A stretch of 64,000 nucleotides of DNA, taken from Gallionellaceae bacterium (GTDB lineage Bacteria; Pseudomonadota; Gammaproteobacteria; Burkholderiales; Thiobacillaceae). Location: positions 62,001 to 126,000 of the forward strand of contig JAQTLN010000011.1 of NCBI GenBank assembly GCA_028714875.1, read 5' to 3'. Both the position numbers and the translations under genes were made by a program. Each line of letters opens with the position of its first letter. The first letter of the stretch is position 1. Of the stretch, positions 9,192 to 45,148 are shown in pieces. Below the pieces are notes generated by a model. It saw only the letters and a list, made by a program, of their open reading frames with translations, was not told the origin of the DNA and made no database searches.

Positions 9192-9450
9192 TTCCGTCAC
9201 CAGGGGAAAACGTTACCCGGCATTGCCGCGAGGCCGGGGGAGATGCCGCACGCCATCGCCCTTGATCGGAAAGGACGGCGCGCTGAGAGCCGAAAGAGCG
9301 AAGGCGATTGAATTCATGGGGAATTCTCGAAGAAAGCGGAGGAAGGTACGGCGTGGGCAAACATAATCTTTGAATCTACTTATATTGTCACTACCCAAAC
9401 CAACCAGGTTAGGGAATGCCCTCCAGCGGCAAGCGCTTGCATTACATGCG

Positions 9451-13643: not shown

Positions 13644-15539
13644 TCACGGCAGGCAGGTTGCCGAGTGCACGGCCTGGCAATACTCCGGAACCCATTCGCG
13701 CAACTTGGCGCGTACTTCCGCGTCACTGGCCGACTCGCTCCGGGCAATCCAGTCCAGCATGACGGCCACGTCTTCGGCAACCGCGTCGCGCGCCCGCGCC
13801 ACCCGCAACTTGGGATGCGGCGTCGGCAAAGTTGATTCGGAATCCGCGAGCAATTCCTCGTAAAGCTTCTCGCCGGGCCGCAAGCCGCTGTATTCGATGC
13901 GTATTTCGTCTTCGCTTTTGCCCGATAACCGAATCATCAGGCGCGCCAGGTCCGCGATCTTCATTGGCTCGCCCATGTCGAGCACGAAAATTTCGCCGCC
14001 CTGCCCCATCAAACCGGCTTGCAAGACCAATTGAGCGGCTTCGGGAATGGACATGAAGAAGCGGGTGATCTCAGGGTGCGTTACGGTGATTGGCCCGCCC
14101 GCCTCGATCTGCTTCTGAAACTTGGGAATGACACTGCCGGAAGACCCCAGCACATTACCGAAACGCACGGAGATGAAACGGGTCTCTCCCCGCCCCCCCC
14201 GGGGGAGGGGCCGGGGGAGAGGGAAAGACGCAGGATTTGTCCCATCCCCTTGCATCGCCTGGCACACCATTTCCGCCAGCCGCTTCGACGCCCCCATGAC
14301 ATTGGTGGGATTCACCGCCTTGTCGGTGGAAATCATCACGAACTTGCCCACTCCCGCCTGCTTGGCCGCCTGAGCCACCACCCAGGTGCCCAGCACGTTG
14401 TTTTTCAACGCCTGGAGCGTATTCACCTGTTCCATCAACGGCACATGCTTGTAAGCCGCCGCATGAAACACCACGTCCGGGCGGTAATCCCGCATCACCT
14501 GGCCAACCCGCACCGCATCCTTCACATCGCCGATGACACAAGCCAACGGCTGTTCAGGGCAGCACTGGGCGAACTCCTGTTCCATACCATAGAGCGCGAA
14601 CTCCCCCTGCTCGAACAACACCAGCAAGCGCGGCTTGAAGTGCGCCAATTGCCGGCACAGTTCAGAGCCGATGGAGCCTCCCGCGCCGGTGACCATCACC
14701 ACCTTGTCGGTCAGCAGCTCATGCAAACCCTGGCTATCCAGTTTCACCGGCTCGCGCCCGAGTAAATCGTCCAGCTCGATCTTGCGCAAGGACGCAACCG
14801 ACACACGGCCCTGCATAAGGTCGTCCATGGAAGGCACGGTCAGAATATTGAGCCCGAGACCCGCGCACTGGTCGGCCAGTTGCGTGCGTACTTCGTGAGC
14901 GGCGGAGGGGAGTGCCAGGATGACATCGCGCACCCCGTTCTTATCCGCCCAACGCTTGACCTCCCGCGTCGTCCCCAATACGGGAATACCTTGAATCAGC
15001 CGCCCCCGCTTGCCCGGTGCGTCATCCAGCAGCCCCACGGGCTGATAACCTGAAGCCGTGCGGTTCAACTCACGCAAAAGAAAATCTGCCGCCGAACCGG
15101 CCCCGAGAATCAACACGGGTTTGGTTTCCACCAGCAATCCAGCGAAACGGTGGTCCTTCCAGGCACGGTAGGCAAAGCGGCTGCCACCCATGATGAGCAC
15201 CAGTAGTACAGGGTCCAGGATCAGCACGGAACGTGGCACCACGGCTTCCACCCGGAACAGGATCAGTGCCAACCCTGTCGCCACTGCCGCCACCCCAACC
15301 GCCTTCAAGATACGTTTGAGGTCGGGCAAGCTGGCAAAGCGCCAAATACCGCGATAAAGACCGAAGTACCAGAACAGCGCGGCTTGCAGCGGCACCACCC
15401 AGACCAGGGTGGATAAAGCCGCCGGCAGATATTCCGGCGGCAGGGAAAGATTGAAACGCAGCCAGTACGCGCCCAACCAGGCCAGCACGGAGGCGGAAAG
15501 GTCATGAAGAATGACCAGAAAAGAGCGACTAATAAGCAA
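13644..15539 (-). CDS. wbpM: WbpM-type UDP-N-acetylglucosamine 4,6-dehydratase, membrane-anchored
   Basis: A 631-residue long-form SDR. Four membrane segments occupy about residues 1-115, a first Rossmann-like region follows (VLILGAGSAADFLL), and the catalytic SDR begins at VMVTGAGGSIGSELCRQL (about 292-309). AYKHVPLME and the FRFGNVLGSSGSVIPKF-type block complete the family picture. WbpM makes the 4-keto-6-deoxy intermediate for QuiNAc, FucNAc and bacillosamine-type sugars. Residues about 438-452 (FPLPRPLPRGGRGE) are encoded by a palindromic repeat and are not expected in the family. It overlaps the wbpL-like gene by 11 bases. Confidence 0.93.
   Translation of the reverse strand: MLISRSFLVILHDLSASVLAWLGAYWLRFNLSLPPEYLPAALSTLVWVVPLQAALFWYFGLYRGIWRFASLPDLKRILKAVGVAAVATGLALILFRVEAVVPRSVLILDPVLLVLIMGGSRFAYRAWKDHRFAGLLVETKPVLILGAGSAADFLLRELNRTASGYQPVGLLDDAPGKRGRLIQGIPVLGTTREVKRWADKNGVRDVILALPSAAHEVRTQLADQCAGLGLNILTVPSMDDLMQGRVSVASLRKIELDDLLGREPVKLDSQGLHELLTDKVVMVTGAGGSIGSELCRQLAHFKPRLLVLFEQGEFALYGMEQEFAQCCPEQPLACVIGDVKDAVRVGQVMRDYRPDVVFHAAAYKHVPLMEQVNTLQALKNNVLGTWVVAQAAKQAGVGKFVMISTDKAVNPTNVMGASKRLAEMVCQAMQGDGTNPASFPLPRPLPRGGRGETRFISVRFGNVLGSSGSVIPKFQKQIEAGGPITVTHPEITRFFMSIPEAAQLVLQAGLMGQGGEIFVLDMGEPMKIADLARLMIRLSGKSEDEIRIEYSGLRPGEKLYEELLADSESTLPTPHPKLRVARARDAVAEDVAVMLDWIARSESASDAEVRAKLREWVPEYCQAVHSATCLP
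14184..14224. repeat. GC-rich palindromic repeat inside wbpM
   Basis: CTCTCCCC ... CCCCGGGGG ... GGGGGAGAG folds into a GC-only hairpin. Translated in frame on the minus strand, it gives FPLPRPLPRGGRGE, placed just before the conserved RFGNVLGS block. Confidence 0.85.
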
Positions 15540-20480: not shown

Positions 20481-22220
20481 GTGACGACTTTCCGCCCGAA
20501 AATTCTGCGCCAGCTCGGAGACTTGCTCTCGCCAAGGGACAAGCTGATCCTGGCTGTACTGCTTCTGATGTCTGTGATCTTCGCCGGCGTAGAGACCGCC
20601 AGCATTTCACTGGTCATGCCGTTCATCACTCTGGCCACGGATCCCACCTCGGCACTCGAACAAGCGAATTATGCGAAGGTCTACCACCTGCTCGGCTTCG
20701 AATCCACACACCGATTCGTCATCGCCGTCGGATGCGTTCTGATTGTGTTCTACCTGTTACGAGCGGCCTACACCCTTACTTACACCTATGCCCTGAACCG
20801 GTTCACATGGGACCGCTACCACGACTTGGCGACCCGCCTTGTTTCCACCTATCTCGCTCTACCCTACCGGGAATTCACTCAACAAAACTCCTCCCAACTC
20901 GAAAAGAGCATCATCACCGAGGCGGCCTACCTGGCCCAGTTGATCGTATCCACCCTGCGCTTCATAGCCGAGGCGGCGGTCGCAGTGCTGCTCTACACCG
21001 TGCTGCTATTCGTCAATCTCCAGGTCACCCTGGTCATCACCATCCTGCTGGCTGTGAAGATCGGCGCCCTGACTTATCTCATCAAACGCATCACGACGCG
21101 GCAGGGGGTGTTGCGAGAACAGCATCAGTCCCGCTTCTACCACCTGCTCAACGATGCCTTCGGCAATTTCAAGCTGGTAAAACTCCTGTCCAGCGAGAAA
21201 CAGATAGTGCAGCAGGTATCCCAGGCCGCCTCCGGTTACTGCCGTTCCAACATCGTCAACACCACTGTCAGCCAACTCCCCCCCACCGTATTGGAAACGG
21301 TTGGACTATCCCTGCTGGTTGGCATCGTGCTCTACACCCTACTCACCAGCACGGATGGCCACCAGATCATCCCCATCATCTCCATGTATGCCCTGGCCCT
21401 ATACCGGATGATGCCGGCCGCGCACCGCATGTTGTATTACTACAACAATATTCTGTATTACCGGCGTTCGCTGGAGATAGTGCATAAGGAATTGACCCGG
21501 CCGATCCCCGCCGATGGGGACGATCCAGTCCAGTTCACCCGACAAGTGGCATTGGAAAACGTCGGATTCAACTATCCCGGGCGTGGGAGCGTGTTCGACA
21601 GCGTAAGTTTGACCATACGCAGGAATGAAAAAATCGCCATCATTGGCCCCTCCGGAAGTGGCAAATCCACCCTGCTCGATCTGCTTATCGGCATCCACGC
21701 CCCGGACCAGGGTCGGGTGCTGGTCGATGATATCGCGCTCACTCCCAGCAATGTGCGGGCTTGGCGGCGCGCCATCGGTTATATCCCACAGAACATTTAT
21801 TTATTCGACGGCAGCGTGGCCGAGAACGTGGCTTTCGGAAAAAACTACGATGAGGAGCGCATCGCCCTGGCCCTGACGCAGGCGAGAATTTACGACTTTC
21901 TCCAACTCCATGAAGGCATCCACACCCAGGTGGGTGAAGGCGGCGTAAAACTCTCCGGAGGGCAAAAACAGCGCATCGGCATCGCCCGGGCCTTGTATGG
22001 CGATCCCGAGATCCTGGTGCTGGACGAGGCCACTTCGGCCTTGGACCCCGCAACAGAGGCACAAATCATGTCGGAAATGCATGATCTGGTACGGGACAGG
22101 ACCTTGATCGTCGTTGCCCACCGTGCCTTATCTACGCAATATTTCGACCATATCTACCGGGTTGAAGCTGGGCAACTCCACACCACCACGGAACAATCTC
22201 CCGCCGCTCATCCCTGCTAA
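20481..22220 (+). CDS. Single-chain ABC exporter (MsbA/PglK-like flippase candidate)
   Basis: A 579-residue half-transporter with a GTG start. Six membrane segments occupy about residues 20-320, then a nucleotide-binding domain with Walker A GPSGSGKSTLLD, signature LSGGQKQRIGIARAL, Walker B ILVLDEATSALD and the switch histidine in IVVAHRALS. This architecture is used by lipid A flippases and by PglK, which flips lipid-linked oligosaccharides. In this cluster no Wzx flippase is seen, so it may supply that step. It lies between two radical SAM genes. Confidence 0.85.
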   Translation: MTTFRPKILRQLGDLLSPRDKLILAVLLLMSVIFAGVETASISLVMPFITLATDPTSALEQANYAKVYHLLGFESTHRFVIAVGCVLIVFYLLRAAYTLTYTYALNRFTWDRYHDLATRLVSTYLALPYREFTQQNSSQLEKSIITEAAYLAQLIVSTLRFIAEAAVAVLLYTVLLFVNLQVTLVITILLAVKIGALTYLIKRITTRQGVLREQHQSRFYHLLNDAFGNFKLVKLLSSEKQIVQQVSQAASGYCRSNIVNTTVSQLPPTVLETVGLSLLVGIVLYTLLTSTDGHQIIPIISMYALALYRMMPAAHRMLYYYNNILYYRRSLEIVHKELTRPIPADGDDPVQFTRQVALENVGFNYPGRGSVFDSVSLTIRRNEKIAIIGPSGSGKSTLLDLLIGIHAPDQGRVLVDDIALTPSNVRAWRRAIGYIPQNIYLFDGSVAENVAFGKNYDEERIALALTQARIYDFLQLHEGIHTQVGEGGVKLSGGQKQRIGIARALYGDPEILVLDEATSALDPATEAQIMSEMHDLVRDRTLIVVAHRALSTQYFDHIYRVEAGQLHTTTEQSPAAHPC

Positions 22221-22261: not shown

Positions 22262-24304
22262 ATGACAGACATGCAAATCTGGCTCTGCGACCTTACCTAT
22301 ACGCAGCAGACCGTAGCCGCAGACACCATGCCCATGGCCATCGGCTGCATCGCAGAATACACGGAGAAACGTCTTGGTCTGACCACTCCCATTGTTTTGT
22401 TCAAATATCCAGAGGATCTCATTGAGGCGCTGGAAACCGGACCCCTGCCCCAGATATTGGGCTTCAGCAACTACTGCTGGAACCTGGGTCTGAGCAGCGA
22501 TATAGCTCGGGCGGTCAAAGATGTCGCGCCGCACACTGTCATCGTATTCGGCGGCCCTAACTACCCGCTTCCAGACGAAGAACGGGTAACTTTCCTGCTT
22601 GAACATCCGGAAATCGATTTCTACCTTGCCGGGGAAGGAGAGGCCGCTTTCGCTGATCTGGTAGAAGCACTCAGAATTAATCGCTTCGACACAAAGACAG
22701 TCAAGCAATCGGCGCTACCTTCCATACACTGCCTCGATGCTGACGGGGGGGGCAGCTTCCCGCCGAAGAGGGACCGACTGGTTGAGCTGGATGAAATCCC
22801 GTCTCCCTACACCAGTGGCCGCCTGGACAAGTTCTTCGACGGTAAATTAATGCCACTACTCCAAACCAACCGGGGCTGCCCCTTCAGCTGCACCTTCTGC
22901 GTGGAGGGGGACACCTATTACTCCAAGATCCGAAAATATTCCGCGGAGCGAATCCGTGCCGATGTTGATTACATCGGTAGTCACATGCACGCCATCCGCA
23001 GCGACCGTTCCCGTAATGACCTGTTCATCGCCGACTCCAATTTCGGCATGTATGCAGGCGACATAGACACCTGCCAGGCCTTGCGAAAAACGCGGGAAGA
23101 TTATCAATGGCCGGAATACATCAACGTCGCTACCGGCAAGAACAGCAAGGAGCGCGTCATCGAGGCGGCAGAACTCCTCGACGGCGCCTTGCGGTTGTCG
23201 GGCTCGGTACAAAGTCTGGATGCCAATGTACTGACTAACATTCGCCGCAAGAACATTTCCGTCGAGCAACTGGTCGAGCTTGGACTCCATTCCAACAGGA
23301 TCGGCGTCAACTCCTACAGCGAGATCATTCTTGGCCTGCCTGGCGACAGCAAGGTCGCGCACTACGACACCATCCGCCAGGTGATCGACGCCGGATTCAA
23401 CATCGTTCTGCCCTGGCAGTTGATGCTGATCAACGGCTCGGAACTCGCCACGCGCACTCACAAGCAGCTGTACCAGATGGATGTCCGCTATCGAATTCTG
23501 CCCCGCTGCTTCGGCAGTTACCCGCTTTTCGGCAAGACCATCAACAGCGCCGAGATCGAGGAGGTCTGCGTGGCCAATGCCACCCTGCCTTTCGAGGACT
23601 ACCTGGAATGCCGGCGCCTGAATCTGTTCGTCGCCATTTTCTACAACGACAGCATTTTCTCGGGCCTGCTTAAACTGTTCCGCCTGCTCGACATCTCCAT
23701 CTTCGACTGGATACTCCGGGTCATGGAACACAGCCGCCAAACGAGTCTCGAGGGCGTGGTGACCGAGTTCCTCCAGGCGACTCGGGACGAGTTATGGTCC
23801 TCGCGCGCCGAACTGGAAGCTTTCTGCCGTGACACCGAGACCATCCAGCGCTATGTCCGGGGGGAACTAGGCCGTAACAACCTGTACTACTTCCGCACCC
23901 TAGCGATCACCCAGCACATCGACACATTGAAAAGCATGGCATTGAACACGGCCCTGGCCATGCTTCAGGAGGCCGACCAGGATGACGCCGAACTTCGGCG
24001 CTTCGTAGGGGAGTTGCTGGAATACCATGCGCTGCGCATCCGGGACGTATTCACTGAGCCGGATCGCGCCCTAACCGGCACATTCAATTTCGACTTGCTC
24101 CGCTTCGACAAGGACAACACTGTCACGTCCTATGCCAGTGTGCGCGCCGACCACCCACGAACCTACCACTTCACATTGAACGAACAACAGCGTGATCTGA
24201 TCAGACGCAACCTGATCGTACACGGTAGCAATTCGGTGGGTATTGCCCGCATCCTCTCACGGGTATTCGTGAAGAAGTTGTACCGCCAAGTCGAAGAAGT
24301 CTGA
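22262..24304 (+). CDS. Cobalamin-type radical SAM protein
   Basis: A 680-residue protein of B12-binding radical SAM architecture. The N-terminus (about 1-140) resembles a B12-binding Rossmann domain (PQILGFSNYCWNLGLSSD, HTVIVFGGPNYP, FYLAGEGEAAFADLV), but the usual DxHxxG lower-ligand motif is not visible. The radical SAM core follows with TNRGCPFSCTFCVEGD (cysteines 206, 210, 213). The long C-terminal part (about 430-680) is helical and unassigned. Such enzymes methylate or rearrange unactivated carbons. The product is unknown, and one at this position in a glycan locus is uncommon. A G8 tract (22745-22752) encodes Gly162-164. Confidence 0.8.
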   Translation: MTDMQIWLCDLTYTQQTVAADTMPMAIGCIAEYTEKRLGLTTPIVLFKYPEDLIEALETGPLPQILGFSNYCWNLGLSSDIARAVKDVAPHTVIVFGGPNYPLPDEERVTFLLEHPEIDFYLAGEGEAAFADLVEALRINRFDTKTVKQSALPSIHCLDADGGGSFPPKRDRLVELDEIPSPYTSGRLDKFFDGKLMPLLQTNRGCPFSCTFCVEGDTYYSKIRKYSAERIRADVDYIGSHMHAIRSDRSRNDLFIADSNFGMYAGDIDTCQALRKTREDYQWPEYINVATGKNSKERVIEAAELLDGALRLSGSVQSLDANVLTNIRRKNISVEQLVELGLHSNRIGVNSYSEIILGLPGDSKVAHYDTIRQVIDAGFNIVLPWQLMLINGSELATRTHKQLYQMDVRYRILPRCFGSYPLFGKTINSAEIEEVCVANATLPFEDYLECRRLNLFVAIFYNDSIFSGLLKLFRLLDISIFDWILRVMEHSRQTSLEGVVTEFLQATRDELWSSRAELEAFCRDTETIQRYVRGELGRNNLYYFRTLAITQHIDTLKSMALNTALAMLQEADQDDAELRRFVGELLEYHALRIRDVFTEPDRALTGTFNFDLLRFDKDNTVTSYASVRADHPRTYHFTLNEQQRDLIRRNLIVHGSNSVGIARILSRVFVKKLYRQVEEV

Positions 24305-25303: not shown

Positions 25304-25410
25304 GCCATCCTCGACTCAAACAATTCATTACGTTGACCTCATCAGGTGGTAAAGGCGAAAATCAGCGTTTAATCGAATAATTCCAATTGGGTAGGATTGG
25401 CACTCTAGGC

Positions 25411-26832
25411 ATGAAAACCATCGCATTCCTCCCGCTGACCCGGACCAACTGGCCCATCATGGTCAGACTGGCCACCACAGTCAGGGACAGCGGGCAAGGC
25501 CATCCAGTCATCATTCTATCCAACCCGCTGATGAAGAGCCTGTCCCGCGACATGGGCAGCAACATCGAATCGGTAGAAATAGGTGAAATTTCCACCCCCA
25601 CCCCGCATGCCACTCATGATCTGCCGCCGGCAAGCGTCGTTGAAAGCTGCTTGCGTGCCGGACTGCAGGGCGTCAGACGCAGCCGAATGCTCACCCCACT
25701 CCTGTCTTGGCACAAGGGCCGGGCGATGCAAAGGCAGTTATGCATAGCGGAGAGTCTGCTGCGCAAACTCCAACCCACGGCCATCGTCGTATCCGGCGAT
25801 CGCAACACTGGCATTGAGCCCGCCATCCTGCGTGCCGCGCGCAAGCTCGAAATTCTGTCCATCATCCCACCCTCCGCCTTCTCCGCCACCCTGGAAGGTT
25901 TATTCATCGCGCGACGGCAAAATCCGGCCCATTTTGTGACGCATCGGGCAGACTTCAAGCGCCAATTTCCCAATCAATGGCGGCACGATCCTATGTCAGG
26001 AGAAGACATCTGCTTCTTCGGGGTGGCCACGACTCGTGCCTATGCCAGCCTCGGCATGCTTTCGGAAAACCCCTGGGTGCTGGGTGGCGGGCTCAGCGAC
26101 TGGATCCTGGTAGACAGTACGGATGTAAAGCAACGCTACATTGATTTGGGTGTTGATCCCGACAAGATTCTGGTCACGGGACACCCGGACCATGATGCCC
26201 TGTCACAAAACGAGCAGCGGAAGGCTGAAATACGCACTCTCCTTTATGACAAATACCAACTCGACCCGGCTAGGAAGCTGATCTTGCTCTGCTTGCCCAA
26301 CTGGGCCGAAGTCGGCCTGAAAAGCTGGGAATGGCATTGGCGTGAAAGCGAGATTTTGTGCCGCAACGCAGTTAAGCAGGATTGCAACGTCCTGCTCTCC
26401 CTGCATCCCAGCCAGGAACGAGCACGCTATATACATCTGGAAGATAGTTTCCGCCCTTTGCGTATTCTCGATGAGCGTCTCGCTATGGTCATGCCGGTGG
26501 CGGACATCTATCTCACCGGGCTAGCTTCCTCCACCATCCCCTGGGCGGTGTTGTCCTCTGTACCCACAGTGATTGCCGACCACTATCCAGAGAAGGATCG
26601 CATCCATGCTGGCCTGCCGGGTGTCCTTTATGTTCCCGAGGCTGATCAGTTGGCCAATACGCTCGCGCGCCTGGTCGGCGACGACACCTATTTCCAGGCA
26701 TTGAGACAGCGCCAACAGGAATCCGCAAATCGCTATGGCACCATCGATGGGCATGCCACCGAGCGAATCGTCCAGGCGCTGCTCAACTCAAGCTTCAGGA
26801 ATGGCGGAGAAAGGCTTGCCCATGCCGCGTAA
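25411..26832 (+). CDS. GT-B-like transferase of unknown specificity
   Basis: A 473-residue protein that I do not recognise at family level. It begins MKTIAFLPLTRTNWPIMVRLA. Residues about 130-160 read VVSGDRNTGIEPAILRAARK, and the C-terminal half has a Rossmann-like block (KILVTGHPDHDAL, LILLCLPNW, NVLLSLHPSQERARY) and a TGLASSTIPWAVLSSVPTV stretch. This recalls GT-B transferases of the polysialyl/CDP-glycerol type, where HP and SS motifs contact the nucleotide. A sugar or polyol phosphate transferase role is inferred. It overlaps neuC by 11 bases, which links it to the nonulosonic-acid genes. The start is ATG 25411; an upstream TTG is weaker. Confidence 0.6.
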   Translation: MKTIAFLPLTRTNWPIMVRLATTVRDSGQGHPVIILSNPLMKSLSRDMGSNIESVEIGEISTPTPHATHDLPPASVVESCLRAGLQGVRRSRMLTPLLSWHKGRAMQRQLCIAESLLRKLQPTAIVVSGDRNTGIEPAILRAARKLEILSIIPPSAFSATLEGLFIARRQNPAHFVTHRADFKRQFPNQWRHDPMSGEDICFFGVATTRAYASLGMLSENPWVLGGGLSDWILVDSTDVKQRYIDLGVDPDKILVTGHPDHDALSQNEQRKAEIRTLLYDKYQLDPARKLILLCLPNWAEVGLKSWEWHWRESEILCRNAVKQDCNVLLSLHPSQERARYIHLEDSFRPLRILDERLAMVMPVADIYLTGLASSTIPWAVLSSVPTVIADHYPEKDRIHAGLPGVLYVPEADQLANTLARLVGDDTYFQALRQRQQESANRYGTIDGHATERIVQALLNSSFRNGGERLAHAA

Positions 26833-27967
26833 AGTCATGGTACTGACCGGAAAACGTGGTGGTTTCGGCGCCATGAAGCCGATGCTGCGCTTGTTGCGCG
26901 ACGATCCCGCCTTCGAATTGCAACTGGTGGTCACGGACCAGCATCTCGATCCGCGTTTCGGCCGCACCATAACCGAGGTCGAACGGGAGTTTTCTATTGC
27001 CGCCGCCGTCGATATGGAACAGCGCGACGGTACGGCGGCGGGCCGGGCACGCGCTCTAGGCGTGTGCGCGACCCGCATGGCGGAAACTCTGGATGCTCTG
27101 AAACCCGACCTGTGTCTGCTGTACGGCGACCGGGGCGAAGTCCTGGCCAGCGCCATGGCCGCCACCGCAATGAGCATCCCCATCGGCCACATGCAGGGTG
27201 GAGATGTGTCCGGCTCGGTGGATGAGCAGGTCCGCCATGCGGTCACCAAGCTGGCGCATCTACATTTTCCGTCCACCCGGGAAAGCGCCGAACGCATCCT
27301 GAAGATGGGGGAGGAGCCCTGGCGGGTGGTGGTCACCGGCGATCATCACCTCGACCTGATCGTGGCCGGAGAGTACGCCGCCAAGTCCGAGGTCGCCGAA
27401 GCCACCGGCATTGATCCCGACCAGCCGGCGATCGTGCTGCTGCAACACTCCGAGACCACCGCCCCGGACCAGGCCTACCAGCAGATGGCCGAGACTCTGC
27501 TCGCGGTGCGCGACACCGGCATGCAAGTGGTCGTGGTCTACCCCTGTTCCGACGTAGGCTACGAAGGGATCGTGCAAGCCATCGAGGAATTTGCCACCGG
27601 CCCGCAATTCCGGGTCTTCAAGAATCTCGAAGCGCCGTTGTTCTGGGGTCTGCTGGCCACCGCCAGCATCATGGTGGGCAACAGTTCTGCAGGCATCATC
27701 GAAACCCCCTGCTTCCGTTTGCCCGCCATCAACATCGGCCGGCGCCAGGAAAACCGCCTGCATGCGGAAAACGTGATTCATGCGGAACACGACCGCAACA
27801 CCATCATGGCAGCCATTGACCATGCCCTCAACAATGAATCTTTTCGTGAGTCCACCCACATGTGCAGGCAGGTCTACGGTGATGGCACAGCGGGATGGCG
27901 GACGGTGGAGGCCATCCGCAACCTACCGTTGGACAACCGCCTACTCGTCAAACGCATGACCTACTGA
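26822..27967 (+). CDS. neuC: NeuC-like hydrolysing UDP-N-acetylglucosamine 2-epimerase
   Basis: A 381-residue GT-B fold epimerase that converts UDP-GlcNAc to ManNAc and UDP, the first sialic-acid step. Evidence: LTGKRGGFGAMKPMLRLL at the N-terminus, GDRGEVLASAMAATAMSIP, IGHMQGGDVSGSVDEQVRHA and, near the C-terminus, MVGNSSAGIIETPCFRLP and NIGRRQENR (uracil/phosphate binding). It could instead be LegG-type and act on UDP-diacetamido sugar. A GGAGAAAGG ribosome binding site precedes ATG 26822. The next gene is the cytidylyltransferase, one base downstream. Confidence 0.88.
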   Translation: MPRKVMVLTGKRGGFGAMKPMLRLLRDDPAFELQLVVTDQHLDPRFGRTITEVEREFSIAAAVDMEQRDGTAAGRARALGVCATRMAETLDALKPDLCLLYGDRGEVLASAMAATAMSIPIGHMQGGDVSGSVDEQVRHAVTKLAHLHFPSTRESAERILKMGEEPWRVVVTGDHHLDLIVAGEYAAKSEVAEATGIDPDQPAIVLLQHSETTAPDQAYQQMAETLLAVRDTGMQVVVVYPCSDVGYEGIVQAIEEFATGPQFRVFKNLEAPLFWGLLATASIMVGNSSAGIIETPCFRLPAINIGRRQENRLHAENVIHAEHDRNTIMAAIDHALNNESFRESTHMCRQVYGDGTAGWRTVEAIRNLPLDNRLLVKRMTY

Positions 27968-27968
27968 G

Positions 27969-28721
27969 ATGCCGATGACTGCTCCGCCCTCCCCCTTGCG
28001 TTCCTGGGCCTTCGTCCCAGCCCGTGGCGGCTCCAAGGCCATTCCACTGAAGAACCTGGCCGACCTGGGCGGCAGGCAGCTGATGGACTACTGCATAGAG
28101 GCCGCCAAAAGCAGCAGAATCTTCGAACGCATCATCTGCTCCACCGAGCATGCTGGCATTGCTGCCCGCGCGGTCGCACTTGGGATCGAACACGACCAAC
28201 GACCTCTGGAACTGTGCGGTGACGAAGTTTCCACCCGAGCGGTCATACTGGAGTTCCTGGAGCGACACCGGAACGAACTGCCAGACCTGTTGTTCATCGT
28301 CGAGCCCACCAGTCCCTTTCTGCGCCCTAAGGACATCGCAGCCCTGCTGGAACGGATGCAGGAGAATCCTGTCGCCGTGACCGGCCAGACCATCGCCCAG
28401 CCACCGCATACGCACCACGCATGGAACCAGCGCGAGATGCGCGACGGCCAGGTGCGCTTCATCTTCGAGGAACGCAAGAAGGTCTTTGCCAAGCAGAACA
28501 AGCCCGTACTCTACGTATTTGGCAACCTCATCGCCTGCCGTACAGCTGAACTGCTCGCTGGCGGTGACGTGTTCGCGGAACCCTCGGTAGGAGTGGAAAT
28601 CGACTGGCCCTACGACATCAACATCGACTATCCGAATGACCTCACTCTTGCCAATATCCTGCTAAAGGCCGGGCTGGTTAACCTGCCACACATGCACCGC
28701 AACAGCGTATGCGCAAGCTGA
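27969..28721 (+). CDS. neuA: CMP-nonulosonic acid cytidylyltransferase (NeuA-like), copy 1
   Basis: A 250-residue nucleotidyltransferase that activates a nonulosonic acid with CTP. It carries FVPARGGSKAIPLKNLADLGG (nucleotide-binding P-loop-like motif), VEPTSPFLRPKDI, and EIDWPYDINIDYPNDLTLA (metal-binding aspartates) near the end. Start ATG 27969 lies one base after the neuC stop; ATG 27975 is possible. It acts between NeuB and the sialyl-type transferases. A 91-base gap leads to the sulfoquinovose synthase gene. Confidence 0.87.
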   Translation: MPMTAPPSPLRSWAFVPARGGSKAIPLKNLADLGGRQLMDYCIEAAKSSRIFERIICSTEHAGIAARAVALGIEHDQRPLELCGDEVSTRAVILEFLERHRNELPDLLFIVEPTSPFLRPKDIAALLERMQENPVAVTGQTIAQPPHTHHAWNQREMRDGQVRFIFEERKKVFAKQNKPVLYVFGNLIACRTAELLAGGDVFAEPSVGVEIDWPYDINIDYPNDLTLANILLKAGLVNLPHMHRNSVCAS

Positions 28722-28812
28722 GATCGTTCTGTCAACCCCATACTGCTGAGCGATGCCACTTAAGACGCCGCAGCCATCTCAATTACCTAATTAAAGCAAT
28801 GGAGTTTCACTC

Positions 28813-29967
28813 ATGCGCATCCTGATTCTGGGTGGTGACGGCTATCTGGGCTGGCCGACCGCCATGTACCTGTCCAATCGTGGTCATGAAGTCGCGGTCG
28901 TCGACAACATGGTCAAACGCTTCTGGGAAGCCGAAATCGGGGTGCAGCCGCTCATCTCCGTGCGCCCTTTCCATTTGCGCGCCAAACGCTGGGAGAACCT
29001 CACCGGCAAGCGCATCCAGTTCTACACCTGCGACATCGCCAGTAATCACCGGCACATCTACAACATCTTCGAACAATTCCAGCCAGACACCGTCATCCAC
29101 TACGCGGAACAACCCTCGGCGCCGTTCTCCATGATCGACCGGGAGAAGTGTGTCACCACCCAGCAAAACAACGTGGTGGGCACCCTCAACATCATCTTCG
29201 CCATCCAGCATACCAACCCGGACATCCACCTCATCAAGCTCGGCACCATGGGCGAGTACGGCACGCCCAACATCGACATCGAGGAAGGCTGGCTGGATCT
29301 GGATCACAACGGACGCCACGACCGGGTGCTCTACCCCAAGAAACCTCATTCCTTCTACCACCTGTCCAAAGTCCACGATTCCGCCAATCTGGAATTCGTG
29401 TGCCGGGTGTGGGGAAGCCGGGTCACCGACCTCAACCAGGGCTGCGTCTATGGCATCGACACCGACGAAACAGCCATGCACCCTGAACTGAACACCAGTT
29501 TCCATTACGACGCCGTATTCGGCACGGTCATCAACCGCTTCGTCATTCAGGCAAGCCGCAACCTGCCCCTCACTGTCTATGGCAGCGGCACCCAGACCCG
29601 CGGTTATCTCAACATCCGCGACACCCTGCGTTGTGTAGAACTGGCCGCCCTCAACCCCGCGGAACGCGGCGAGTTCCGTGTATTCAACCAGTTCACAGAA
29701 CAATTTGACCTCAACACCCTGGCTAAGAATGTGCACTCAGCCGCCGCCGGTATGGGCCTGCCGGTCAACATCGACCACATCGCCAATCCACGTGTGGAAC
29801 AGGAGCAGCACTACTACAACGCCAAACATTCCGCGCTGCTTCAATTGGGCCTGGAGCCCCACCTGCTGACCCAGGAAGTGCTCGCCGGCATGCTGGAAAC
29901 CGCGCTGCTTCACAAGGACAACGTGGACGAATCCAAGATCATGCCCAACGTGAAGTGGAAGAGTTGA
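28813..29967 (+). CDS. sqdB: UDP-sulfoquinovose synthase (SqdB/SQD1 family)
   Basis: A 384-residue extended SDR. SQD1/SqdB enzymes join sulfite to UDP-glucose to give UDP-sulfoquinovose. Visible SQD1-type signatures are GGDGYLGWPTAMYLSNRG (residues 8-25), YAEQPSAPFSMIDR (97-110), GTMGEYGTPNIDIEEG (144-159) and FYHLSKVHDS (181-190), with Thr145, Tyr182 and Lys186 as the expected catalytic residues; also DLNQG (206-210) and FRVFNQFTEQF (288-298). No SQDG synthase (SqdX/SQD2/SqdD) is nearby, and the gene lies inside the sialic-acid-like operon, one base overlapping neuB. So a role in glycan rather than membrane lipid is inferred. Confidence 0.9.
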   Translation: MRILILGGDGYLGWPTAMYLSNRGHEVAVVDNMVKRFWEAEIGVQPLISVRPFHLRAKRWENLTGKRIQFYTCDIASNHRHIYNIFEQFQPDTVIHYAEQPSAPFSMIDREKCVTTQQNNVVGTLNIIFAIQHTNPDIHLIKLGTMGEYGTPNIDIEEGWLDLDHNGRHDRVLYPKKPHSFYHLSKVHDSANLEFVCRVWGSRVTDLNQGCVYGIDTDETAMHPELNTSFHYDAVFGTVINRFVIQASRNLPLTVYGSGTQTRGYLNIRDTLRCVELAALNPAERGEFRVFNQFTEQFDLNTLAKNVHSAAAGMGLPVNIDHIANPRVEQEQHYYNAKHSALLQLGLEPHLLTQEVLAGMLETALLHKDNVDESKIMPNVKWKS

Positions 29968-30992
29968 TGAATTTTCCCGCCAGCTTCAGCATAGCCGGCC
30001 GCGAAATTGGCCCGGGCGCACCTTGCCTGGTCATCGCCGAAGCTGGCGTCAACCATTTTGGCAGCATGGAGAAGGCCTTCCGACTGGTGGACATGGCCGT
30101 GGAGGCCGGGGCAGATGTGCTGAAGATCCAGCACTTCCACACCGATCGTCTGATCGGCAACTCGGCGGCCGACTGGCGCGATCGCATGCGTTCCAAGGAA
30201 CTCTCCGAAGTAGACGTGCGGCGTATCAAGGAATACTGCGACCAGAGCGGCATCCTATTCTTGTGCACTCCTCACGACGACTGGGCCTTGCGCTTCCTGA
30301 ACGAGGACATTGGCCTGCCCGCCTTCAAGATTGGCTCCGGCGAGGTGGAAAACTGGCCGTTCCTGGCCCAGGTCGCCCAATGCGGCAAACCGGTCATTCT
30401 GTCCACCGGCATGTACCGCCTGGGGCAGATCCGAGAGGCCATCCAGGTGCTGGCCGAAAATGGCTGCCCCGCTCTCTCCATCCTGCATTGCGTGACCAGT
30501 TACCCAGCCCCGCCGGAGGCCATCAACCTCAAGGTCATGGACGAGATACGCGCCTTCTTCCCGGGTCCGGTGGGCTATTCCGACCACACCGCGGGCACAG
30601 CAGTCCCTCTTGCTGCGGTGGCCCGGGGCGCGAACGTGCTGGAAAAGCACATCACCCTGGATCGCGACGTTCCCAATGCCCAAGATTGGAAAGTATCCTG
30701 CGACCCCTCGAATTTCGCCACCTTCGTTGCCCAGGTGAGGGAAATCGAGGCCGCACTGGGGAGCACCGAGAAGAACCTCGGCGAACTGGAGCAAAATGCC
30801 CTGCTTTGGGCACGCAAGAGCCTGCATGCGGCGAAACCAATCCCCGCCGGCTGCGCCATCGACCCAACCATGCTCGTGGCCCAGCGCCCCGGCAAGGGCA
30901 TCTCGCCCGCCCACCTCACCGCCATCGCCGGACACACCGCCAAAAGTGACATCCCCGCAGGCGCCATGATCGACTGGGACATGATTGCATGA
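29967..30992 (+). CDS. neuB: NeuB-type nonulosonic acid synthase with SAF domain, copy 1
   Basis: A 341-residue enzyme that condenses PEP with a ManNAc-type sugar. The TIM barrel (about 1-270) holds VIAEAGVNHFGSMEKA, PAFKIGSGEVENWPFL, KPVILSTGM and VGYSDHTAG, and the C-terminal SAF/antifreeze-like domain begins near KSLHAAKPIPAG (about 275-335). The start shares one base with the sqdB stop (TGATG), giving coupled translation. Its 3' end overlaps the methyltransferase by four bases. The exact nonulosonic acid (Neu5Ac-like or another) is not decided by sequence. Confidence 0.9.
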   Translation: MNFPASFSIAGREIGPGAPCLVIAEAGVNHFGSMEKAFRLVDMAVEAGADVLKIQHFHTDRLIGNSAADWRDRMRSKELSEVDVRRIKEYCDQSGILFLCTPHDDWALRFLNEDIGLPAFKIGSGEVENWPFLAQVAQCGKPVILSTGMYRLGQIREAIQVLAENGCPALSILHCVTSYPAPPEAINLKVMDEIRAFFPGPVGYSDHTAGTAVPLAAVARGANVLEKHITLDRDVPNAQDWKVSCDPSNFATFVAQVREIEAALGSTEKNLGELEQNALLWARKSLHAAKPIPAGCAIDPTMLVAQRPGKGISPAHLTAIAGHTAKSDIPAGAMIDWDMIA

Positions 30993-31927
30993 TCACCTGG
31001 GACATCGACGAAAGTCTCCTGAGCTCCCCCGCCATCACCAACCGGAACCTCTTCGCGCAGACGCTCGCCTCTCAATCCGCCGAGGTGATCATTACCCAGT
31101 ACGCAGGGCTGACACCCCAGCAGATCGAGCAGGAGTTCAGCGAGATCTTCGCGATTGTGCGCGACCTCGGCATCGATCTTCATGGTACGGGGCTGGAACT
31201 GGGCGCCGGCGTCGGTGTGTTGTCGGCAGTGGCGGTGAACTGCTGGCCGGATATCGAACAACTCTACGCGCTTGAGGTCGTGCCCAAAGTCATCGAATTG
31301 CTGCAACCGCAGACCGTGCGTCATATCGCCCCAGCAACGGCGGACAAGATACTCGGTGTGCTCGGCTCCTTCGACGACATGCGTGTGCCGGATGGGCATT
31401 TCGACTTCTGCATCGAATATGCCTCACTGCACCACAGCGACGACCTGCTGCGCACCCTGCGCGAGACCGCGCGGACACTCAAACCCGGGGCCCCCCTGAT
31501 CGCCATTGACCGCGCGCATTACGATGGCGTATCGGGCGAGCAACTCCGGTTCATGCTCGACGTTCACTACTCGGCGGAATGGAAGCGGCGCAACGGTTAT
31601 TCCGATGCCCCCTTGAGCCGTGCCCGGAACGGAGAACACGAGATTCGTATGCGCGAATGGCTGGCCGCATTCGCAGCCACAGGGTTCGAAGTCGTCCGCC
31701 GCGTCGAGCTGCGCCCCACTGGCTGGCGCCAGTTGCGTTACAAGACGGCCCTGATGCTGCCGTTCCGGCTACGCCGCACCCTCGGCCTCCATCCCTCACG
31801 GGTCCGTCCCGCCATCGCGGAACTCATCTGGCTGGCGGCAGGATTGCTTGGCTGGTCGGCAGGCTCCAACACCTATCTCCCGGCCGCCAAGGAGCACACG
31901 CTTTTCATCGCCCGGAAACGCCCATGA
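30989..31927 (+). CDS. Class I SAM-dependent methyltransferase
   Basis: A 312-residue methyltransferase with motif I GLELGAGVGVLSAVAV, an acidic end of strand 2 (LYALEVVPKV), and HFDFCIEYASLHHSDDLLRTLRE. It overlaps neuB by four bases at its start and the next gene by four bases at its end (ATGA both times), so it belongs to the nonulosonic/sulfoquinovose operon. A methyl group on the sugar is the simplest inference; the target is unknown. Confidence 0.8.
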   Translation: MITWDIDESLLSSPAITNRNLFAQTLASQSAEVIITQYAGLTPQQIEQEFSEIFAIVRDLGIDLHGTGLELGAGVGVLSAVAVNCWPDIEQLYALEVVPKVIELLQPQTVRHIAPATADKILGVLGSFDDMRVPDGHFDFCIEYASLHHSDDLLRTLRETARTLKPGAPLIAIDRAHYDGVSGEQLRFMLDVHYSAEWKRRNGYSDAPLSRARNGEHEIRMREWLAAFAATGFEVVRRVELRPTGWRQLRYKTALMLPFRLRRTLGLHPSRVRPAIAELIWLAAGLLGWSAGSNTYLPAAKEHTLFIARKRP

Positions 31928-33525
31928 GCAGGCTCATGATTCTGCCGGCCTTCGGCGTATGGCCGATGCTGGAGTTCGAGCTGGACATCGTCGAGCGGCG
32001 ACTTGCCGAGGGCCACGAGGTCGTCTGGCTGATGTGCGAGGGCAATGCCCCGTTTTGTCCGGCCAATCTGGCCCTGAAAAAACGGGTATGCATGGAATGC
32101 CGCTCCCGCACCCGGGCTGGCCTCAACTGGCTGAGCCACCACAAGAACCTCAAGGTTGGCAGCCTTTACGCCCTGGAGCCGGCCCAGTGTAGCGAAAGCG
32201 AAGACTGGGCCGGCAGGGCCGTGCTCGGCCCCAAACCCACGGCACCCGGTTTGCCAGCGGACCTGGCCGCCACCGACTGGTATGAATCGGCCTTTTCCAC
32301 TTTACAGACCACCTACAAGGAATTCCGCCCTGATCTGGCCATGCGAGAGCCCATGTTGCGGCAAATGATCCTGGACTTCTTCCAGTCCCATCTGGCCTTC
32401 CGCAATAACCTTGCGCGCCATGCCCCAGACGAAGTGTGGCTTTTCAACGGCCGCATCACCCGCTTCCGCCCCGCGTTGCGGGTCTGCCAGCGCGAATCGC
32501 GGCGAGTGTATGCCTATGAATATCCGTACCATGGATTCAAACGTTACGTCGTATTCGAAGGGCAATACCCACACGACTTTGGCTTCCGCTCTCGTGCCTG
32601 GAAACAACGTTTTGATTCCTATCCACTGCCCCTGGAAAAGAAACTGGCCATCGGCGATACCTGGTACCAGAGGCGTTTGTCCCGCATCCAGATTGGTTAT
32701 GAAAAAGTATTTTCCGTCTGGCAAACCGAGGGACTGCTGCCGCCGGACTGGAATAGGGAGCGCTACAACGTGGCGGTATTCAACAGTTCAGAGTGGGAAT
32801 CCGCGGGGGTACCAGAATCCCGACGCTGGAACTACGAAGACCAGTATTCGGCACTGGAACGCATCCTTCAGGACACCCAACACCTGCCCCACCTGCACTT
32901 CACCTTTCGCATTCACCCCCATATGGCCAAGAAGGACACGGAAAGCGCAGAGCGCTTCCTGACCCTGGCCCGCTTTCCCAACGTGACCGTCCTGCCTCCT
33001 GAATCGAAGTACGACACCTACGCCTTGGTCATGGCCAGCAACGTGGTGTTGACCTTCTACTCCCTGGTGGGGGTGGAAACGGCATGGCTGGGCAGGCAAG
33101 CCATCTGTCTCGGCCCGACGCCCTATCAGGATTTCGGCTGTGTCTATCTACCCCGCACCCACGAGGAACTGCTGGACACCCTGTCGCACCCGGAACAGAT
33201 GGCCGATCGCTTCCCGAGCATCGAGGCACGCAAGCGTGGGGCCCAGGAATTTGCCTTCGCCCGCATATTCGCTGGAACCAAACCACGCTATGTGGTCAAG
33301 CGCCACTACACCCGAGCGCTCATGCGACGGGACGGGGTAGCGACCGAGATCAAGGCGGGTTTTGCCATCCGTGCCCTGAACCGGGTGCTCTCGCTGCCGG
33401 CCTATACCGTCGAAGCCGTGCAGCGCATCCGCAAGGATGAGTTCCTGCGCAAGGAAATTGCCCAATCGCCCGGCCGCGCCGTGCTGCGTTTCATCCGCGA
33501 GCGGCTGATGGGCACCGTGCCTTGA
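31924..33525 (+). CDS. Large capsule/polysaccharide transferase-like protein of unknown specificity
   Basis: A 533-residue protein that I cannot name. It starts MSRLMILPAFGVWPMLEFELDIVERR (GT-B-like first strand and helix). A cysteine cluster follows (CEGNAPFCPANLALKKRVCMECRSR, four cysteines in about 22 residues). The C-terminal half has HFTFRIHPHMAKKDT, then VLTFYSLVGVETAWLGRQAIC, which resembles donor-binding regions of capsule transferases. A glycosyltransferase role is inferred, and it could use CMP-nonulosonate or UDP-sulfoquinovose. It is the last gene of the rightward operon and is convergent with the next gene at 12 bases. Confidence 0.55.
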   Translation: MSRLMILPAFGVWPMLEFELDIVERRLAEGHEVVWLMCEGNAPFCPANLALKKRVCMECRSRTRAGLNWLSHHKNLKVGSLYALEPAQCSESEDWAGRAVLGPKPTAPGLPADLAATDWYESAFSTLQTTYKEFRPDLAMREPMLRQMILDFFQSHLAFRNNLARHAPDEVWLFNGRITRFRPALRVCQRESRRVYAYEYPYHGFKRYVVFEGQYPHDFGFRSRAWKQRFDSYPLPLEKKLAIGDTWYQRRLSRIQIGYEKVFSVWQTEGLLPPDWNRERYNVAVFNSSEWESAGVPESRRWNYEDQYSALERILQDTQHLPHLHFTFRIHPHMAKKDTESAERFLTLARFPNVTVLPPESKYDTYALVMASNVVLTFYSLVGVETAWLGRQAICLGPTPYQDFGCVYLPRTHEELLDTLSHPEQMADRFPSIEARKRGAQEFAFARIFAGTKPRYVVKRHYTRALMRRDGVATEIKAGFAIRALNRVLSLPAYTVEAVQRIRKDEFLRKEIAQSPGRAVLRFIRERLMGTVP

Positions 33526-40659: not shown

Positions 40660-41093
40660 GGCATCAGCACCTCCACCAGTTCCAACAACACCCCCTCCGG
40701 CCCCCGGCAATAGGTCACCTTGGCGTAGCCATCCGGCGAAATCTGGGGTGGAGCACTGAATGTCACCCCCGCCTCGGCCAGACGTTGGCAGGCCGCATCC
40801 AAGTCGTCCACGGTCAAAGCGATATGGGTAAAACCGGTGGAATAGGGTGTTCCAGTCCAGACAGGTTGATCCGGGTGCGTATGAAAATGCAGGAGTTCGA
40901 CCAGATTGCCGTCTGGCGCGGCCAGTTTGACCGTGGTGACCTTCACACCATCAAGGCCCATCATCGCGTCGATATGGGCACCGGATTCGTCCATGCGCTT
41001 GGTCACCTTGAAGCCAAGAAGATCGCACCAGAAACGCATTGCCGCCTCCAGGTCGGCGACCACGAGACCGGTGTGGCGAATATGGGTGATCAT
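40656..41093 (-). CDS. VOC (glyoxalase/bleomycin resistance) family protein
   Basis: A 145-residue two-repeat VOC protein: ITHIRHTGLVVADLEAAMRF and GFTHIALTVDDLDAACQR are the two beta-alpha-beta-beta-beta halves, with His and Glu residues (VELLHFHTHP, LLELVEV) that could bind metal. These folds catalyse isomerisation, epimerisation or C-C chemistry. It lies between the aminotransferase and a methyltransferase and may act on the same intermediate. Confidence 0.82.
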   Translation of the reverse strand: MITHIRHTGLVVADLEAAMRFWCDLLGFKVTKRMDESGAHIDAMMGLDGVKVTTVKLAAPDGNLVELLHFHTHPDQPVWTGTPYSTGFTHIALTVDDLDAACQRLAEAGVTFSAPPQISPDGYAKVTYCRGPEGVLLELVEVLMP

Positions 41094-42466
41094 TCCGCAG
41101 CCACTTCGGCGATGGCCTCACCAAGAACCGCCACGCCTTCGAGCAGAGCTTCGTCCGTAATGGTGAGAGGCGGGCCGATCTTGATGGATTCTCGCCCGGT
41201 GTGAACCACCAGCAGCCCCTTCTGCATACAGCGCTCTGCCACTCGGCTGGTGAAAGCGCCATCCGGCTTGCCGCTTCTGGGGTCGTGGATCAGCACGGCG
41301 GCAATCAGGCCGCGTCCCAACAGATGGGGGATGCGTCCAGGGAAGCGGTCCTGGAGACTGCGCAAGGCGTCGAACAACAGACAGCCCTTGCGCTCGGTCT
41401 CGGCGATCAAATCGCGTGATTCAATCTCCTCGATCACAGCCAGGCCGGCAGCGCACACCAGAGGATTGGCGGAGTGGGTGCTGCTCATATTGCCCACTTC
41501 CGGCAGATCCATAACCTCGGCCCGGCCCAGCACGCCGGAGAGCGGTACTCCGCCGCCCATACCCTTGCCGCAGCAAATCAGATCGGGTTCCACACCATAG
41601 TGCTGGAAACCAAAAGCCCGGCCGGTGCGCGCAAAGCCTGCCTGCATCTCGTCAAAAGCAAGGAGAATGCCGTGACGGCGGCACAACCGCTCGATGCTCT
41701 GGACGAAATCATCCGGATAAAACACCGCGCCCCAGCCCTGAAAAGTTTCCAGCATGAAACCGCAGACGTCCTGAGCCAGGTCGATACCCGCTGCTTCCAG
41801 CTTGTTCAGACCTTCGGCCAGGAACTCCTCGCCGGAACGGCCGTTGAGCGCCCAGGGATAAGGGAAAGGGATATGGTGGATGTCCGCGTCCTGGTAGCCG
41901 ATCCACTCCTTCTGGGCGAGGTTGCTGCTCATCATCTGGGCGCCGAGCGTGCGGCCATGCCAGTTGTTCTCGATACAGATAATGCCGCGCCGGCGCTTGC
42001 CGGTCTTCTGGCCGTGCATGCGCATGAGTTTCAGCGCCGCCTCGGTGGCCTCGGTGCCTGCCGAGAGCAGAAAGGCTTTCTCGAATGGCGGGCCGGCGAA
42101 AGCCACCAGTTTTTCCAGATAGCGCGCGCGGGACTCGTTGGCGTAGGCGTAACAACTATAGAGTGGCCTATCCAGGGCCGTCTTCATGGCCGTCGTGACA
42201 CGGATATTGGAATGCCCCACGTTAGCCACGAAGATGGTGGATGTGAAATCGATCCAGCGGTTACCGGCGCTATCGAAGACACTGAATTCCTCTGCCCGGT
42301 CCCACACCAAGGGCAACTGCCCCTGCATGGAACGGGACTCGCAGGCTTCCAGGCGTTCCAGGATTTCACGCGTACCGGGAACAGGAATGGCGGTCTGGAT
42401 CAGACGGTTCTCTGTTGTAACGAACGGGACAACCTTGGGTTCCCGCGAAAATTCATATCCCGACAT
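41090..42466 (-). CDS. Class III pyridoxal-phosphate aminotransferase
   Basis: A 458-residue enzyme of the GabT/ArgD/glutamate-1-semialdehyde mutase class. LLSAGTEATEAALKLMRMHG binds the cofactor phosphate, LAFDEMQAGFARTG holds the aspartate that contacts the pyridine ring, and CCGKGMGGGVPLSG contains the Schiff-base lysine. This class differs from the DegT/DnrJ aminotransferases usual in sugar loci, so the amino acceptor may be unusual. Start 42466; the 45 upstream in-frame codons lie in the neighbouring gene. Confidence 0.87.
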   Translation of the reverse strand: MSGYEFSREPKVVPFVTTENRLIQTAIPVPGTREILERLEACESRSMQGQLPLVWDRAEEFSVFDSAGNRWIDFTSTIFVANVGHSNIRVTTAMKTALDRPLYSCYAYANESRARYLEKLVAFAGPPFEKAFLLSAGTEATEAALKLMRMHGQKTGKRRRGIICIENNWHGRTLGAQMMSSNLAQKEWIGYQDADIHHIPFPYPWALNGRSGEEFLAEGLNKLEAAGIDLAQDVCGFMLETFQGWGAVFYPDDFVQSIERLCRRHGILLAFDEMQAGFARTGRAFGFQHYGVEPDLICCGKGMGGGVPLSGVLGRAEVMDLPEVGNMSSTHSANPLVCAAGLAVIEEIESRDLIAETERKGCLLFDALRSLQDRFPGRIPHLLGRGLIAAVLIHDPRSGKPDGAFTSRVAERCMQKGLLVVHTGRESIKIGPPLTITDEALLEGVAVLGEAIAEVAAE

Positions 42467-42476
42467 GGGAGCTATC

Positions 42477-45144: not shown

Positions 45145-45148
45145 GGCA

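Follow-up and report, generated by a model that had tools for sequence, protein, structure and literature searches.

The window analyzed in this study is a 64,000-nt stretch of contig JAQTLN010000011.1, and coordinates given without further qualification are positions in this window. It contains a neuC-neuA-sqdB-neuB module, in which a homologue of the uridine diphosphate (UDP)-sulfoquinovose synthases SqdB and SQD1, the enzymes behind the head group that carries the sulfur in plant sulfolipids, lies among genes for nonulosonic acid synthesis (Table 1). The initial annotation had recognized the SqdB homologue by the motifs GTMGEYGTPN, FYHLSKVHDS and FNQFTEQF, all three of which are carried by the open reading frame (ORF), and had placed it in this gene order with one base common to neuB. 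The coordinates confirm this position, as the TGA stop of sqdB occupies 29965-29967 and the ATG of neuB begins at 29967; the ATG of neuC at 26822 is also the start given there. The SqdB-like protein aligned with Arabidopsis SQD1 over residues 2-383 (508 bits, E 1e-151), and its gene is present as one copy in the genome (E 0.001). NeuC scored 367.5 bits with TIGR03568, above the cutoff of 235.9. The cytidine monophosphate (CMP)-sugar synthetase matched CTP_transf_3 and reached 86.9 bits with the PseF model, under its cutoff of 205.7, and NeuB matched PF03102 (244 bits), has a SAF domain and reached 334 bits with TIGR03569, under its cutoff of 399.65. No UDP-N-acetylglucosamine (UDP-GlcNAc) 4,6-dehydratase or 4-aminotransferase was found among the four module genes; elsewhere in the window there are a PF02719 protein (13644-15539) and a class III aminotransferase (41090-42601).

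Table 1. Genes of the module and candidate accessory genes in the window.
Gene or product	Position	Strand	Remarks
ABC exporter-like gene, possible flippase of the glycan locus	20481..22220	+	
B12-dependent radical SAM protein, KedN5-like	22262..24304	+	171.8 bits, below cutoff 700
GT-B-like protein, candidate glycosyltransferase; membership uncertain	25387..26832	+	Epimerase_2 and Glyphos_transf matches
NeuC-like hydrolysing UDP-sugar 2-epimerase	26822..27967	+	RGG replaces the usual RA[DE] motif
NeuA/PseF-like CMP-nonulosonate synthetase	27969..28721	+	
SqdB/SQD1 homologue, Pro101 subfamily	28813..29967	+	384 aa; EQPSAP / TSFHYD
NeuB-like nonulosonate synthase, sqdB-linked clade	29967..30992	+	Trp74, Arg77, Lys81, His107; PNAQDWKVSC
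Candidate transferase for the activated sugar; module membership a guess	31579..33525	+	Weak match to BFO_1060-type glycosyltransferase model, 29.5 bits, cutoff 200

The motifs cited in the initial annotation do not tell apart two types of SqdB that differ at position 101. In a tree of 111 SqdB rows, all 20 rows with neu genes fell inside one clade of 39 (SH-aLRT 98, quick search), with Pro at position 101 in 38 of the 39 rows, whereas 71 of the 72 rows outside it have Arg. The other diagnostic changes of the clade are Arg229 to Ser, Asp231 to His and Asp39 to Glu. The Pro101 clade is separate from plant SQD1 and from cyanobacterial, Alicyclobacillus, actinobacterial, acidobacterial and most proteobacterial SqdB. 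In a control tree of 72 rows from which nine diagnostic columns were dropped, the grouping persisted for 33 of the 37 Pro101 or Cys101 rows sampled (bootstrap 89, SH-aLRT 70). A cutoff of the NCBIfam model NF041015 was also considered as proof that the window protein differs (438.4 bits, cutoff 575) and was rejected, because all seven Arg-type SqdB proteins tested were likewise under the cutoff (340-490 bits). Another locus, L024, carries a second SqdB paralogue at 8856-10037 (43% identical, MPSAP and TRFDFD motifs) that is also without Arg101.

The window SqdB retains Thr145, Met146, Glu148, Tyr149, Tyr182 and Lys186, and by our own motif-based mapping from the archaeal UDP-sulfoquinovose synthase Agl3, every residue tested in that enzyme is conserved except Arg101, with Ser in place of Thr185. 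The R101A mutant of Agl3 is reported to be inactive, and Agl3 activity was measured as the formation of UDP-glucose-5,6-ene without sulfite (PMC4388408); we take the R101A test to be this same sulfite-free assay. Because this essential Arg is replaced by Pro, the protein is probably not a plain UDP-sulfoquinovose synthase, as it had been named. Position 101 aligns with Lys84 of Escherichia coli GalE, which we take to be the counterpart of Lys85 of Bifidobacterium GalE. The main chain of the latter is described as touching O2/O3 of the sugar, and Lys85 as one of three residues that set the choice between glucose (Glc) and GlcNAc (PMC6668579). By analogy, the loss of Arg101 at the site of a sugar-choice residue argues that the sugar substrate of the SqdB-like enzyme may have changed.

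Named bacterial and archaeal genomes were scanned with the window SqdB-like protein, and the best 80 loci, out of a larger number, were taken. Genes at these loci (labeled L) were called by a homology-seeded procedure that misses some genes, and neighbors were sought by tblastn with the window proteins in flanks of unequal length. A neuB or neuC gene was found nearby at 15 of the 27 loci with Pro101 (26) or Cys101 (1), but at none of the 53 loci with Arg (52) or Ser (1) at this position (Fisher p 2.6e-9, a guide only, as it is uncorrected for flank length and for kinship among the rows). The neu-linked loci span Pseudomonadota, Prochlorococcus, a Syntrophaceae genome and two candidate-phylum genomes; neuB, neuC or neuA stands beside the closest relatives in Rhodobacterales, Rhodospirillales, Thalassospira, Sulfuritalea, two Prochlorococcus, Syntrophaceae, Parcubacteria and Kaiserbacteria. 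The gene order of the window recurs in L005, L008 and L013, the order neuB-neuC-neuA-sqdB is found in L007, L009 (Thalassospira lohafexi 139Z-12), L011 and L017, and a genome of the same genus, G088, also carries the module (L002). The SqdB-like protein of L005 is 95% identical to that of the window. The gene is rare among relatives, with matches at E 1e-80 in 4 of 200 genomes of the order, the window genome included. On plasmids, 20 records matched, none with at least 60% identity.

The initial annotation had proposed a genome-wide search for the sulfolipid genes. It returned no close SqdX, the best match being a GT4 protein of 32% identity, and no SqdD match in a search made without a positive control. 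Among the SqdX calls beside other sqdB genes (non-self, n = 9), seven were 48-66% and two 31-33% identical, so that a distant SqdX is possible in the source genome; the GT4 adjoining an Arg101 sqdB in L112 is likewise only 33% identical to SqdX.

The NeuC proteins encoded near Pro101- or Cys101-type sqdB, hereafter called linked (18 rows from 17 loci), fell in two separate clades (support 100/97 and 97/88). At the position of Ala20 of GNE, Gly was found in 18/18 linked rows and Ala or Ser in the 36 unlinked rows. At the position of GNE Asp21, all 18 linked rows have Gly or Asn, whereas 35 of the 36 unlinked rows have Asp or Glu, giving the motif RGG/RGN in place of R-A/S-D/E. The neighboring GNE residue, Arg19, is reported to stack on uracil and to touch the alpha-phosphate (PMC4793188). 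The counterparts of the catalytic residues Asp112, Arg113, Asp143 and Ser302 of GNE were kept in every linked row. At position 134, which according to the same source may bind the 4-hydroxyl (PMC4793188), Glu or Gln was found in 17 of 18 linked rows and His in 23 of 36 unlinked rows. The same acid is missing in two lineages that share the sqdB neighbor, and this is the strongest hint that NeuC may act on the product of the SqdB-like enzyme.

Changes were also found in the linked NeuB, for which residue numbers follow the 29955 ORF. The 15 linked NeuB, whose source organisms carry five different phylum names, formed one clade with 100/100 support that included none of the 44 unlinked rows. All 15 have Trp74, Arg77, Lys or Arg at 81 and His107, mostly with the stretch PNAQDWKVSC. 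The 37 unlinked NeuB have Gln, Leu or Ile at 74, Met, Leu or Ile at 77 with Arg77 in none, Leu at 81 (35/37) and Phe at 107 (36/37), and mostly PGPDHxASL. Among 398 sampled genomes of the phylum, 146 of which had a NeuB match, the three NeuB nearest to that of the window (self excluded) were those adjoining Pro101-type sqdB. Phe112, Phe288 and Asn74 of Neisseria meningitidis NeuB are listed among the residues lining the ligand (PMC6795526). The changes in the linked NeuB thus fall at the substrate site, where the ordinary pocket for N-acetylmannosamine (ManNAc) formed by Phe112 and the Asn74 loop is missing, with His in place of Phe112 and a WxxRxxx[KR] loop. The window NeuB has the counterparts of N. 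meningitidis Lys53, Gln55, Glu134, His215, Glu234, His236 and Arg314. Arg314, said to place the N-acetyl group (PMC6795526), corresponds to Arg311, which was kept in 13/13 linked rows with letters at this position. Since Arg311 is kept and Arg101 of SqdB is lost, a sulfonated derivative of GlcNAc is a more likely sugar here than sulfoquinovose. Of the two products suggested in the initial annotation, a sulfoquinovose-containing glycan is accordingly the less likely, and a nonulosonic acid formed from sulfoquinovose comes close to our proposal, although the GlcNAc derivative is the likelier precursor.

Predicted viral contigs contained 11 loci with an SqdB-like gene. Nine were of the Pro101 type, eight showing EQPSAP and one (L203), cut before this motif, having TSFHYD. 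Neu genes adjoin sqdB in seven of the nine; in L199 neuB lies 7 kb away and in L201 none was found. The remaining two, L197 (EQR) and L198 (placed by TRLDYD), have no neu genes. RGG was present in all three viral NeuC found, and six linked viral NeuB keep His107; L194 and L195 apparently carry the same NeuB, so that the independent viral cases are fewer than the counts. In L196 (1963-6523), neuC, a 2-hydroxyacid dehydrogenase gene, neuA, Pro101 sqdB and a short neuB (231 aa) stand directly before a ribonucleotide reductase gene. Of the seven flanking proteins tested, six gave matches to helix-turn-helix, ribonucleotide reductase, exonuclease, Sak4, SSB or ParB/methyltransferase families. L196 therefore looks like a phage, and its genes like phage-borne nonulosonate synthesis. 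Among sequenced phages, 0 of 50,697 records matched at E 1e-40.

The sequences support well both the existence of the module and the concerted specialization of its SqdB, NeuC and NeuB enzymes. We propose that the products of the four genes act in a single pathway leading to a sulfonated nonulosonic acid, which we regard as somewhat probable from the sequence comparisons. The substrate, the use of sulfite, the order of steps, the product and its destination would be as follows. The SqdB-like enzyme would oxidize UDP-GlcNAc at C4, remove the C6 hydroxyl, add sulfite at C6 and reduce C4, giving UDP-6-deoxy-6-sulfo-GlcNAc. NeuC would then release UDP with inversion at C2 to form 6-deoxy-6-sulfo-ManNAc, and NeuB would condense this with phosphoenolpyruvate to a nine-carbon acid with the sulfonate at C9, i.e., 9-deoxy-9-sulfo-N-acetylneuraminic acid or close kin. 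Finally, NeuA would activate the acid with CMP for transfer to a surface glycan. The intact catalytic residues of SqdB, the missing acid of NeuC and the new basic position of NeuB make a sulfonate at C6 of GlcNAc, and at C9 of the nonulosonate, the most economical reading.

Several observations weigh against this pathway. No neuB or neuC was seen in the DNA examined at 12 of the 27 Pro101 or Cys101 loci, and of the two further genomes sampled from the genus of the window genome, one had no match to the SqdB-like protein. In the control tree, four Pro101 or Cys101 rows of Chloroflexota and Bacillota without neu genes fell outside the group, which needs two changes for Pro101, and this residue may have arisen more than once. 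The only unlinked NeuC without Asp or Glu, that of L190 with Asn, is placed immediately outside the second of the linked clades, and the change to Asn in this clade may predate the link to sqdB. The NeuB of L061, L117, L120 and viral L199 lie near Pro101 sqdB, with no NeuC seen near them, and fall outside the linked clade yet have Arg77, so that Arg77 is not specific to the clade, unlike the basic residue at 81; they may represent another type of NeuB that was recruited for the same substrate. The W-R-K loop of the viral NeuB could not be aligned, and the complete ones are without the SAF domain. A PseB/FnlA-like dehydratase gene adjoins sqdB in L116 and, by similarity, in L114 and L120, with similar genes near other members of the divergent Pro101 branch, and could mean another sugar there. 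At the SqdB active site, the HYYN stretch near the counterpart of GalE Tyr299 is unchanged (the Tyr299 match itself was not aligned), Arg101 might also assist in sulfite binding, and the predicted use of sulfite rests on homology.

The main rival, which we consider unlikely though far from fanciful, is one pathway without sulfur, in which the Pro101 enzyme would be a UDP-GlcNAc 5,6-dehydratase or add another nucleophile at C6, and NeuC, NeuB and NeuA would make an unusual non-sulfonated nonulosonic acid. UDP-GlcNAc 5,6-dehydratases are known in TunA and Pen (PMC8987622), SQD1-type enzymes carry out the same 5,6-dehydration on UDP-Glc without sulfite, and the loss of Arg101 would also suit such an enzyme. 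However, the other residues tested in Agl3 are retained, Thr185 as Ser, and the loss of the NeuC acid together with the gain of a basic position in NeuB would be expected for a substrate with added negative charge. Genes of sulfate activation near Pro101 sqdB also speak for sulfur, though they could serve other ends. CysNC is encoded in L015, ATP sulfurylase and adenosine phosphosulfate (APS) kinase in L016, and an APS kinase-like protein 7 kb from sqdB in L061; these were the only such loci among those examined with ATP sulfurylase, APS kinase and CysN as queries, and sulfite-forming reductases were not sought.

It is improbable that the module makes two separate sugars of one glycan, with SqdB supplying UDP-sulfoquinovose and the neu genes an ordinary sialic acid. 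The overall similarity to SQD1 favors this, as does Agl3, reported to supply UDP-sulfoquinovose for glycoconjugates (PMC4388408), but the SqdB-like enzyme has lost Arg101, NeuB and NeuC of the linked type form specialized lineages, and in L196 the set is surrounded by genes of DNA metabolism; the seven flanking proteins tested there include no further glycan protein (13.8 of 42 kb covered). We give still less weight to UDP-Glc as the substrate and a sulfonated acid of the 3-deoxy-D-glycero-D-galacto-nonulosonic acid (KDN) type, without an N-acetyl group, as the product. Although the nearest characterized family converts UDP-Glc, Arg101 is changed, the counterpart of the N-acetyl-placing residue is kept in NeuB (PMC6795526), and the mechanism of the hydrolysing 2-epimerase is described as proceeding through 2-acetamidoglucal (PMC4793188). 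Synthesis of the sulfolipid sulfoquinovosyl diacylglycerol, with the operon position incidental, is very improbable, since the distant GT4 and the equally low identity of the L112 GT4 leave some room for it but there is neither a close SqdX nor an SqdD match and the neu linkage was seen in the Pro101 subfamily only.

Other genes near Pro101 sqdB may belong to the same glycan loci. The ABC exporter-like gene of the window has a 91% identical relative in L005 and relatives of 23-29% identity near sqdB in L007, L009, L010, L011, L017, L024 and L061. The true start of the candidate transferase gene is probably near 31924, judged against L005 13119. BFO_1060 could not be confirmed as a known nonulosonate transferase, the term being absent from PMC6388019. 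Relatives of the KedN5-like protein, a possible C-methyltransferase, occur near Pro101 sqdB in L005, L009, L010 and L017. A 2-hydroxyacid dehydrogenase gene, not found in the window, recurs in L006, L024, L030, L042, L114 and L116 (11975-12952) and in viral L193, L194, L196, L200 and L202. At four loci that have Pro101 sqdB but no neu genes (L014, L123, L034 and L016), a GT2 protein is encoded that scores best with the model of the poly-GlcNAc synthase PgaC (120-134 bits, cutoff 422); L014 also has an HlyD-like gene. Such a GT2 protein would suit a UDP-GlcNAc-type product, if weakly, and a sulfonated amino-sugar exopolysaccharide is possible at these loci. The window also holds a second, unrelated nonulosonate-like set on the minus strand (41090-45252), composed of a GmhA-like isomerase, a small ORF that looks HAD-like by eye but has no Pfam match at E 1e-6, a short NeuB of 279 aa only distantly related to that at 29967, a CMP transferase and a class III aminotransferase.

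More broadly, there is close to an even chance that a further class of nonulosonic acids exists beside the neuraminic, legionaminic (Leg) and pseudaminic (Pse) acids, its carbon-bound sulfonate being introduced by a subfamily of SqdB that uses UDP-GlcNAc, with occurrence in several phyla, including Prochlorococcus and candidate-phylum bacteria, and on phages, and with UDP-6-sulfo-HexNAc perhaps polymerized directly at the PgaC-like loci. Our searches of open-licence PubMed Central (PMC) papers turned up no report of a sulfonated nonulosonic acid or of an SqdB-NeuB cluster. If the proposal is true, several phyla and phages make surface sugars with a permanent C-S sulfonate by means of a defined set of genes, which would link the chemistry of sulfolipids with that of sialic acids and provide a new source of organosulfur. 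The product would be an analogue of sialic acid with strong acidity, which might escape recognition by ordinary sialidases and lectins, and SqdB Pro101, NeuC RGG/RGN and NeuB WxxRxxx[KR] together would serve as a gene marker. As a caution, some genes annotated as UDP-sulfoquinovose synthase may make other products.

Compared with known systems, the first half-reaction on UDP-GlcNAc would be shared with TunA and Pen, which differ in their active-site acid/base residues and for which no sulfite step is described in PMC8987622. With the UDP-sulfoquinovose synthases SQD1, SqdB and Agl3, the SqdB-like protein shares the fold family, full-length similarity, the TMG and YxxxK motifs and the residues tested in Agl3 except Arg101 (Thr185 as Ser), but it has Pro for Arg101 and SFHYD for RxDYD, is accompanied by neu genes rather than sqdX and sqdD, and forms a separate clade. 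The enzyme families, catalytic residues and gene set of the N-acetylneuraminic acid pathway (NeuC/SiaA, NeuB/SiaC and NeuA) are also found here; unlike that pathway, the module has a NeuC without the RA[DE] acid, an extra enzyme modifying the UDP-sugar, and a NeuB with a shortened substrate loop carrying Trp, Arg and Lys or Arg and with His for Phe112. In the Leg and Pse pathways, UDP-GlcNAc is modified by a 4,6-dehydratase and a 4-aminotransferase before a 2-epimerase or hydrolase acts, followed by NeuB-type condensation and CMP activation, and the proposed pathway would follow the same logic. Here, however, the four-gene set includes no aminotransferase or acetyltransferase, and the Glu or Gln at position 134 of the linked NeuC (17/18) fits a sugar that keeps its 4-hydroxyl, as judged from the role suggested for this position (PMC4793188).

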